From NCBI GenBank assembly GCA_030837265.1, contig JAUPKV010000039.1:1-5449 (forward strand): a stretch of 5,449 nucleotides of DNA, given 5' to 3'. The stretch comes from Methanobacteriota archaeon. Lineage in GTDB: Archaea > Halobacteriota > Methanosarcinia > Methanosarcinales > Methanosarcinaceae. The first letter of the stretch is position 1, and each line of letters starts with the position of its first letter. This document shows, piece after piece, positions 3,636 through 5,449 of this stretch. Both the position numbers and the translations under genes were made by a program. The notes beneath the pieces are model-generated. The model worked only from the letters and a program-made list of their open reading frames with translations. It was not told where the DNA came from and ran no database searches.

Positions 3636-3788
3636 TTTTGAATCTTTTCGAATGTTTATTGTTAGACTTAAGTGTCAAGTGATTGACTTTGAGCTAATTG
3701 GTTTGGAATGTATTACCCTAAGTGATCCTATGTGATCACCTTTCGTGTTTATTCGACCCACAAAGTAACACACCTGGATATGATTTTA
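3636..3788. other. Intergenic region between convergent radical SAM and zinc-finger genes
   Basis: There is no gene here. It holds a small inverted repeat GTCAA-N4-TTGAC near 3675-3690 and a palindrome GTGATCAC at 3732-3739. The palindrome is preceded by another GTGATCC at 3722. Either could end transcription or bind a protein, but nothing shows which. Confidence 0.4.
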
Positions 3789-3923
3789 CTATGAATCTAT
3801 TTCCTTATGATGAGTGATATTTATCCTCTCATTCCTGGAGTGACAATCTCTAATGTGATCCCTTGTATGTGCCGGATGAACAAATACTGCTTCACAAAAA
3901 AGACAGGGGTATAAATTTTCCAT
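3789..3923 (-). CDS. Small C2H2 zinc-finger protein (44 residues)
   Basis: From ATG at 3923 the minus strand encodes 44 residues ending at TAG 3789-3791. It contains one textbook zinc finger: Cys7-x2-Cys10-x12-His23-x4-His28, with Phe14 at the usual aromatic core position; Cys27 is a possible alternative ligand. The tail is basic and His-rich (ERINITHHKEIDS). Single-finger proteins of this size occur in archaea and are thought to bind nucleic acid or protein; no target can be named. A TATA-like TTTTATATAG (3945-3954, minus strand) is centred about 26 bases before the ATG, and no ribosome site is present, which fits a leaderless mRNA. The exact spacing of ligands makes chance unlikely. The gene is convergent with the radical SAM gene and divergent from Hsp20. 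Confidence 0.78.
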   Translation of the reverse strand: MENLYPCLFCEAVFVHPAHTRDHIRDCHSRNERINITHHKEIDS

Positions 3924-3944: not shown

Positions 3945-3954
3945 CTATATAAAA
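3945..3954 (-). promoter_or_regulatory. TATA box of the zinc-finger gene
   Basis: Read on the minus strand, TTTTATATAG is centred about 26 bases before ATG 3923. Transcription would begin almost at the start codon, giving a leaderless message. Confidence 0.5.
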
Positions 3955-3970
3955 ATTTTGTTAATGATCC

Positions 3971-3980: not shown

Positions 3981-4110
3981 AATTAGTTACGAAAATCGAC
4001 AGCTGTCTGAGGTTATGGAAAGTAAGGTGTCACTTTTTACGTTAAAAGATTCCTTAATCGAATACAAATGTATAAATAAGCTATGCAGCGACTATATTTG
4101 GGGGTATATA

Positions 4111-4410
4111 ATGGCTGAAACCTTGAGACTATCACCAGTTATCAGTACATATCCGGATGATAACTACGAAAATCTTCAAATTGAAGTTATTCTTCCCGGA
4201 GTCGAAAAAAAAGATATTTCATTTAAATTAGATGCAAATAGCTTTTATGTAGCGGCTAATAAAGAAGGAGTTACTTACCTGGACAGTTATTCAATCGCCT
4301 GTCCGGTAGAACCTGGAAAGGCAACTGCAAAGTATTCAAATGGTGTGCTTAAAGTTACAGTACCATATCAGCAGCCTTTAGAAAAATTGGTTGATGTACA
4401 GATAGAGTAA
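4111..4410 (+). CDS. Minimal Hsp20 / alpha-crystallin family small heat-shock protein
   Basis: The 99-residue protein is almost only an alpha-crystallin domain: the first strands NLQIEVILPGVEKKDISFKL (21-40), a middle region ending ACPVEPGKA, and the family signature A-x3-NGVLKVTVP (about 73-85). Such proteins hold unfolding proteins in the cytosol. It is unusually short: the N-terminal arm is about 15 residues and the C-terminal IxI anchoring motif is absent (the end is VDVQIE), so large oligomers may not form. I chose ATG 4111 because the family-like sequence MAETLRLSPV starts there and a G-run lies about six bases upstream. ATG 4015 in the same frame would add 32 residues that look unlike the family, and its GAGG is only two bases away. 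No classical archaeal heat-shock palindrome was recognised upstream. Confidence 0.85.
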   Translation: MAETLRLSPVISTYPDDNYENLQIEVILPGVEKKDISFKLDANSFYVAANKEGVTYLDSYSIACPVEPGKATAKYSNGVLKVTVPYQQPLEKLVDVQIE

Positions 4411-5172: not shown

Positions 5173-5449
5173 ATGAGTTATTGCTGCCCTGTGGACTCCG
5201 AGAAAAAAAAGGAATGGGAAGATCACATGCTTCAGGAAATCGACTTTCTTGAGCACGACATTAAAAAAGCCAGTGACATATTTAGTGCCCTCGGGCACCC
5301 TATTAGGTTGAAAATCGCTTATTTTCTCTCTCAAAGAGATCATTGCGTCTGTGAACTGATATTTAAGTTAGGTGAAAGGCAGAACCTGGTTTCTCATCAT
5401 TTGACTATTTTGAAAAACTGCGAAATTATCGAAGCTTATAGTAGTTCAA
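5173..5449 (+). CDS. ArsR/SmtB-family metal(loid)-responsive repressor (partial, 3' end outside window)
   Basis: The first 92 residues are present and the frame is open to the window end. A charged N-terminal helix (about 10-32) precedes a winged helix-turn-helix: SALGHPIRLKIAYFL (38-52), the DHCVCEL segment (56-62), and the recognition region RQNLVSHHLTILKN (69-82). CVC (Cys58, Cys60) in the helix before the recognition helix is the metal-thiolate site of arsenic/antimony sensors of the ArsR type. Cys4 and Cys5 near the N-terminus could add ligands, as in cadmium/lead sensors. Such proteins leave DNA when metal binds. No in-frame upstream start was found, so ATG 5173 is preferred. It is divergent from the membrane protein, and its regulated efflux or methylation gene may lie beyond the window. 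Confidence 0.9.
   Translation, partial: MSYCCPVDSEKKKEWEDHMLQEIDFLEHDIKKASDIFSALGHPIRLKIAYFLSQRDHCVCELIFKLGERQNLVSHHLTILKNCEIIEAYSSS

Follow-up and report, generated by a model that had tools for sequence, protein, structure and literature searches.

A conserved gene for a 44-residue single zinc-finger protein, probably leaderless, in Methanosarcina

We identified a short gene on the minus strand of a 5,449-nucleotide stretch of DNA from a methanogenic archaeon (hereafter the window), where an ATG-started open reading frame at 3789-3923 encodes 44 residues plus a stop codon, and sequence comparison makes it almost certain that this gene is real and conserved. The explanation favored for it as a whole, that of a leaderless Methanosarcina microprotein gene whose zinc-finger product binds a partner protein, is given about an even chance. 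The features on which the analysis draws are the following.

3789..3923, minus strand: coding sequence, including the stop, for the 44-residue zinc-finger protein (open reading frame, homologues, selection)
3840..3905, minus strand: predicted finger core from Cys7 to His28, C-x2-C-x12-H-x4-H, with an invariant extra Cys27 (alignment, AF2 models)
3921..3923, minus strand: ATG start codon, with transcription predicted to begin at this codon or no more than ~3 bases from it (spacing in 5/5 loci and the literature distance from TATA box to start site)
3945..3955, minus strand: TATA box TTTTTATATAG, reading CTATATAAAAA on the plus strand, with its 3' end 21 bases upstream of the ATG
3722..3739, plus strand: stem-loop with a T-rich tail, a possible terminator, located where the radical SAM and finger genes converge
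4111..4410, plus strand: divergent small heat-shock protein (HSP20), judged to stand outside the system (PF00011, relatives)

The frame at 3789-3923 translates to MENLYPCLFCEAVFVHPAHTRDHIRDCHSRNERINITHHKEIDS. It was noted that both elements claimed in the preliminary description, an exact Cys-x2-Cys-x12-His-x4-His spacing and a core Phe, are present as Cys7-x2-Cys10-x12-His23-x4-His28 and Phe14, in a protein with 3 Cys and 6 His among its 44 residues. Its assignment to the C2H2 class stood in part: the spacing is exact, but Cys27, which adjoins His28 and went unmentioned there, is also invariant in all seven intact proteins. With Cys27 and His28 equally fixed, the zinc site may be either C2H2 or C2HC, and Cys27 could, judging from the alignment, replace His28 as the fourth ligand. 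The Pfam zf-C2H2 model (PF00096) aligned full length to the window protein with an E-value of 0.034 and 15.1 bits against a cut-off of 25.2. It matched seven of seven family members (best E 0.0079), and its spacing of C-x2-4-C-x12-H-x3-5-H with a core aromatic residue was exact in 7/7 intact proteins, while no convincing family for the protein was found in PHROGs or NCBIfam. Among 21,577 open segments of at least 30 aa from 200 dinucleotide-shuffled windows, two carried the motif C..C-x12-H-x3-5-H, so that the chance rate of the motif alone is approximately 0.01 per shuffled window; it is the homologues that settle the frame as real.

A search of approximately 5.8 billion proteins returned two hits (P0002 and P0003), which match the window protein at 77 and 80%, and a search of proteins with a five-row alignment added P0004 and P0005; all four are proteins from short public contigs. 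P0004 and P0005 are free-standing 43-residue frames whose first residue is the conserved Met. The entries for P0002 and P0003 carry a 21-residue N-terminal extension upstream of that Met, in which KIFIY and NFLYY occur, and the extra residues, as read, fit a translated TATA region. Five matches at E-values up to 0.1 were obtained among 30 Methanosarcina genomes, and four were taken as copies; the other (L025, E 0.016) was dismissed after reading as a chance match. The copies lie in genomes G005, G006, G015 and G030 (4/30) and are intact in only 2/30. L023 and L014 are the intact genome copies, with 53% and 48% identity, whereas L024 is cut after about codon 24 (68% over 25) and L015 is frameshifted, with His28 replaced by Arg (39% identity). 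This brings the intact copies to seven of nine in all, window included, with two broken.

No further convincing member was found in 111 genomes of the family or in 392 genomes drawn from the phylum. Five matches at E 0.013-0.041 in the 111-genome search were dropped on E-value alone, and L033-L038 (E 2.8e-4 to 0.005) were set aside as unrelated after reading; L038 does read as a C2H2 finger, but inside a longer Cys-rich protein. Seven weak matches (E 0.42-1.3) were likewise set aside, with the motif in 0/5 matched frames among the five scanned. The first alignment-based scan of genome contigs confirmed no copy, and its exact words probably miss divergent copies. Phage records, plasmids and a pair of viral-contig scans yielded no relative of the finger protein, and a viral or plasmid origin was rejected for lack of a match in these collections. 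The radical SAM gene places the window in a Methanosarcina-like genome: of the 13 loci returned for this gene, ten were from Methanosarcina, with 69-77% identity over the best segment. The available portions of the literature on Methanosarcina, archaeal C2H2 fingers and small or leaderless frames yielded no description of the family, with an earlier sighting possible in a 27-sequence figure (PMC3541406), and the word 'zinc' was absent from the available main text of a Ribo-seq study of M. mazei (PMC11456600).

The seven-row conservation set consisted of the window protein, P0002-P0005, L014 and L023, and lengths in the family are 43-46 residues. Invariant in 7/7 intact proteins were M1, Y5-P6-C7, F9-C10-E-A-V-F14-V15, D22-H23 and C27-H28-S29; all four of Cys7, Cys10, His23 and His28 were therefore unchanged when ligand substitution was checked. 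The tails split the family into two clades, with the window type ending in ...INITHH or ITITHH (His-His at 38/39) and the L014 type carrying CxxC at 35/38. A comparison of synonymous and non-synonymous change, which the preliminary description had suggested, gave dS above dN in 6/6 pairs under NG86, with dS saturated in two, and the frame was kept in the relatives. The closest genome pair, L014-L023, had a dS of 0.525 and a dN of 0.019, with 9 synonymous and 2 non-synonymous changes and 0, 1 and 10 changes at the three codon positions. The earlier proposal of a real short C2H2-type gene is borne out by the conservation of frame, ligands and start codon and by purifying selection, and at the level of sequence these comparisons demonstrate coding status, selection and the invariance of the ligands.

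The promoter geometry was also found to be conserved in the aligned DNA. As had been proposed, a TATA-like box lies upstream of the gene, at 3945-3955, and the word TTATATA starts at -29 relative to the window ATG. The box stands 21-23 bases from the ATG in all five loci read as DNA (window, L014, L015, L023, L024), four of which carry TTTTTATATAG and one, L015, the variant TTTTCATATAA; in shuffles of each of the five upstream regions, a box word fell at -29 to -31 in 2 to 12 of 2000. In an ungapped comparison from the box, the box-centered block showed 72-94% identity in 10/10 locus pairs, compared with 23-43% further upstream. The lack of a ribosome site noted in the preliminary description was seen in 5/5 loci, with GGAG, GAGG and GGTG all absent from the 20 bases that precede the ATG. 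The available text of PMC5378194 places the BRE and TATA box of Methanolobus psychrophilus approximately 19-22 nt from the start site, for 81.6% of primary transcripts, against the 21-23 nt to the ATG measured here, and reports approximately 16% of transcripts in that organism as leaderless and the mRNAs of Methanosarcina mazei as mostly having long 5' UTRs; methanogens in general are described as carrying 5' UTRs in the consulted part of PMC3600222.

Since box and spacing are retained in 5/5 loci and no ribosome site is present, a leaderless promoter is well supported. The earlier suggestion to that effect is considered probable, and we predict with high confidence, from the sequence comparisons, that the finger gene is transcribed leaderless from its TATA box. 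Transcription driven by the box at 3945-3955 would begin at or next to the ATG, and with a transcript beginning there, translation of the mRNA would start without a ribosome site. Additional box words occur at -55 in the window and at -63 in L014, which leaves room for a leadered start at those points. Downstream of the gene, the stem-loop at 3722-3739 was found once against 0.1 expected on shuffles, and for the minus strand it is weak (z -1.66; equal folding in 13/200 shuffles).

The protein very probably adopts a single beta-beta-alpha zinc-finger fold, as predicted by structural modeling. AF2, run on a five-row alignment of the window protein, placed strands at residues 5-6 and 13-14, followed by a helix beginning at residue 17, with block pLDDT values of 84-90 over residues 1-30 and a mean of 75.5 in the best model, and P0004 (also five rows) gave the same layout with block values of 83-89 and a best mean of 74.8. 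The five models of each job disagreed (mean pLDDT 54-75.5 for the window protein and 47-74.8 for P0004), and the tails were poor, at 45-53. A seven-row family profile matched classical fingers in the PDB, including Kaiso (E 1.7e-5) and 7znf (E 4.5e-4). The family has the motif, core Phe, predicted fold and PDB profile match in common with the classical eukaryotic C2H2 fingers (ZFY, Kaiso; PF00096), but it differs from them in having a single finger in 44 aa that falls below the Pfam cut-off. Leu is usual at the classical-finger position equivalent to residue 20, whereas Thr, Ala or Val is found there in this family, together with Asp at helix position 6.

We further examined the helix face, using a presumed numbering of positions (-1, 2, 3, 6). 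With P0002 left out, the remaining six proteins read H-A-H-D, H-V-H-D, D-G-F-D, N-D-Y-D, D-G-Y-D and D-G-Y-D at these four usual DNA-contact positions, with Lys and Arg absent from all of them and His at -1 and 3 in the window clade. Asp occupies position 6 in 7/7 intact proteins, with Glu in its place in the broken copy L015. In the same six proteins Asp plus Glu exceeds Lys plus Arg in 6/6, with pI values of 4.5-6.3. The acidity of the proteins and the Asp at helix position 6 favor a zinc-stabilized protein-binding microprotein over a DNA-binding factor, and we regard protein binding, rather than DNA binding, as somewhat the better bet. The 44-residue product would form one beta-beta-alpha finger around a predicted zinc ion, with Cys7, Cys10 and His23 as three of the ligands and His28 or Cys27 as the fourth. 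A partner protein would most likely be bound and tuned through the helix face, which is acidic and unlike that of a DNA binder, and through the variable tail, which is rich in metal ligands. Protein binding and regulation are what we infer from these features, and the protein would act as an accessory regulator that some lineages retain and others have lost.

Because the finger motif and predicted fold are the same as in AFV1p06, an alternative is that the protein is a single-finger DNA-binding transcription factor working in the same manner. In the available text of PMC3541406, AFV1p06 is a small archaeal protein that contains a single finger of the classical C2H2 type, binds DNA with sequence-dependent affinity and, by the authors' count, has 20 distant euryarchaeal relatives; the DNA binding of this viral single finger indicates that one finger suffices in archaea. 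However, AFV1p06 is described in the same text as having basic residues near phosphates, Glu as the fourth ligand, and N- and C-extensions with a third strand (PMC3541406), whereas the acidic proteins described here show Asp (7/7) at helix position 6, Asp, Asn or His at -1 and His28 or Cys27 as the putative fourth ligand. The AFV1p06 family has a conserved extension of loop, helix and third strand following its finger; AF2 shows no third strand after the finger in the window protein or P0004, in a tail of low confidence, and AFV1p06 is of viral origin while no viral or plasmid relative of the finger protein was found in the collections searched. We therefore consider this role possible but doubtful. 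A metal buffer or zinc-storage peptide, as opposed to a macromolecule binder, appears improbable. The protein is rich in Cys and His (3 and 6 of 44), both clades have spare ligands in their tails, namely the CxxC (35/38) of the L014 type and the His-His pair (38/39) of the window type, and an ArsR/SmtB-type metalloregulator-like gene starts at 5173, approximately 1.2 kb from the finger gene. Against this role, residues other than the ligands are conserved (Y5, P6, E11, A12, V13, V15, D22, S29), and among seven neighbor proteins in other genomes only one best match bore a metal-related name, a NosD-type beta-helix protein, and this speaks only weakly for a metal role.

The preliminary description had hinted at a stress link through the heat-shock neighbor, and the two start codons of finger gene and HSP20 lie only 187 bases apart in the window. 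PF00011 matched the longer frame at 4015-4410 (E 8.6e-6); the mechanical frame starts at 4015, and the HSP20 start was set at 4111, as relatives align from that Met. Relatives of HSP20 were found in 30/30 Methanosarcina genomes as compared to 4/30 for the finger gene, and the two were never close there: the nearest listed HSP20 match is approximately 413 kb away in G015 and approximately 998 kb away in G030, and in G005 and G006 the finger gene and all listed HSP20 matches are on different contigs. No finger gene was found in G003, the genome with the best HSP20 match (82%), and in the 293 bases upstream of its HSP20 gene only the 84 adjoining bases and the first codon match the window (83%), with no match to the finger promoter. 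Because of this genome distribution the heat-shock partner reading was rejected, and a stress protein co-regulated or acting with the divergent HSP20 is very unlikely. A chance frame or dead gene is less credible still: two of nine copies are broken (L015, L024), but homologues, selection, invariant residues and the conserved promoter block argue against it, and a chance origin of the frame was ruled out by frame conservation, homologues and selection. Past its frameshift, L015 even retains a third-position excess relative to L014 (6, 5 and 13 changes by codon position), so that its decay looks recent, or else reflects an assembly error.

The surroundings of the finger gene were found to vary among genomes. 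A Beta-CASP nuclease (metallo-beta-lactamase) gene lies near it in G006, G015 and G030, the Pfam match having been made on the G015 gene and the other two being its blastn matches at 90 and 83%; a methyltransferase-like frame stands between the two genes in G030. In G005, the finger gene is approximately 1.7 kb from an RFC-like gene. In G015, it occupies a segment of approximately 560 bases flanked by direct copies of approximately 145 bases (87%), which correspond to the 5' end of the Beta-CASP gene (L027, 7530-7674 and 8233-8382), and six loci matching the G015 flank gave no blastn match to the finger gene. It was also noted that the truncated finger gene of G030 continues into the antisense of a CHAT-domain frame (L028, around 8254-8376). 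The gene's position thus varies between genomes, and the common part is the approximately 130-190 bases of promoter plus gene.

Separately from the finger gene, the right end of a MITE-like element (~145 bp, dispersed; TIR CATTTGTATTCGGTTAAG) was observed at 4029-4074 on the plus strand, immediately upstream of the TATA box of HSP20. The end motif of the element, with at most two mismatches, occurs in 15/30 Methanosarcina genomes and 54 times in G007, compared with 0 for a control pattern. A MITE-matching stretch of at least 30 bases precedes six of the 12 HSP20 loci read, which raises the possibility that the end of a mobile element acts as a heat-shock promoter. A MITE origin of the finger promoter was rejected, as the left-end score was reached by 138/300 shuffles in the window; for the promoters of L014 and L023 the figures were 23/300 and 97/300, and for the right end 0/300. 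Elsewhere in the window, the region 149-2544 contains two alpha/beta-hydrolase genes whose N-termini look signal-like by eye; these genes have G+C contents of 0.52 and 0.45, against 0.33-0.40 in the other genes, and were perhaps acquired from bacteria or result from an assembly join.

We compared the family with other small zinc proteins. MtrI of M. mazei, from the same genus, is a 68-aa stand-alone zinc-ribbon protein of varying gene context that, according to the available text of PMC12774963, binds and is thought by its authors to regulate the Mtr complex. It offers a precedent within the genus for the protein-binding role favored here. The likeness lies in a small stand-alone zinc protein found in Methanosarcinales families, with variable context and an accessory character, while the length of MtrI, its four-Cys zinc ribbon and its known partner Mtr set it apart (PMC12774963). 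The C(P)XCG micro-proteins of Haloferax volcanii are also single-domain archaeal zinc proteins below 70 aa, described with two C(P)XCG motifs in the parts available (PMC6562870, PMC11241148); the finger protein instead has one CxxC (CLFC) and a helix with His23 and His28, and by reading no C(P)XCG motif is present in the window protein. Two more Methanosarcina families, L039-L045 and L046-L049, were encountered with one C2H2-like finger in frames of 37-55 residues. The former differ in apparent TTG or GTG starts behind purine-rich stretches and the latter in a C-x2-C-x12-H-x3-C pattern followed by another Cys, and inspection by eye showed no TTTTTATATAG box ahead of either family. The finger family belongs, at genus level, to the already known single-domain archaeal zinc-finger microproteins.

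According to the available text of PMC3541406, classical C2H2 fingers are almost confined to eukaryotes, and DNA binding by an archaeal one was first demonstrated for a viral protein. Tentatively, these genes may encode Methanosarcina-specific, leaderless, acidic single-finger regulators that use the C2H2 fold for protein binding, in two sister lineages whose different spare tail ligands (His-His versus Cys-x2-Cys) would provide a switchable second metal site or a dimer contact. Annotation misses or mis-starts such genes, as with P0002 and P0003, which were entered with 21 extra residues. With a conserved finger of 43-46 residues and a start codon fixed by its promoter, the gene offers a compact system in which to study the action of a lone finger, and leaderless genes as well, in a genus where most mRNAs have long leaders, as reported in the portion of PMC5378194 available.
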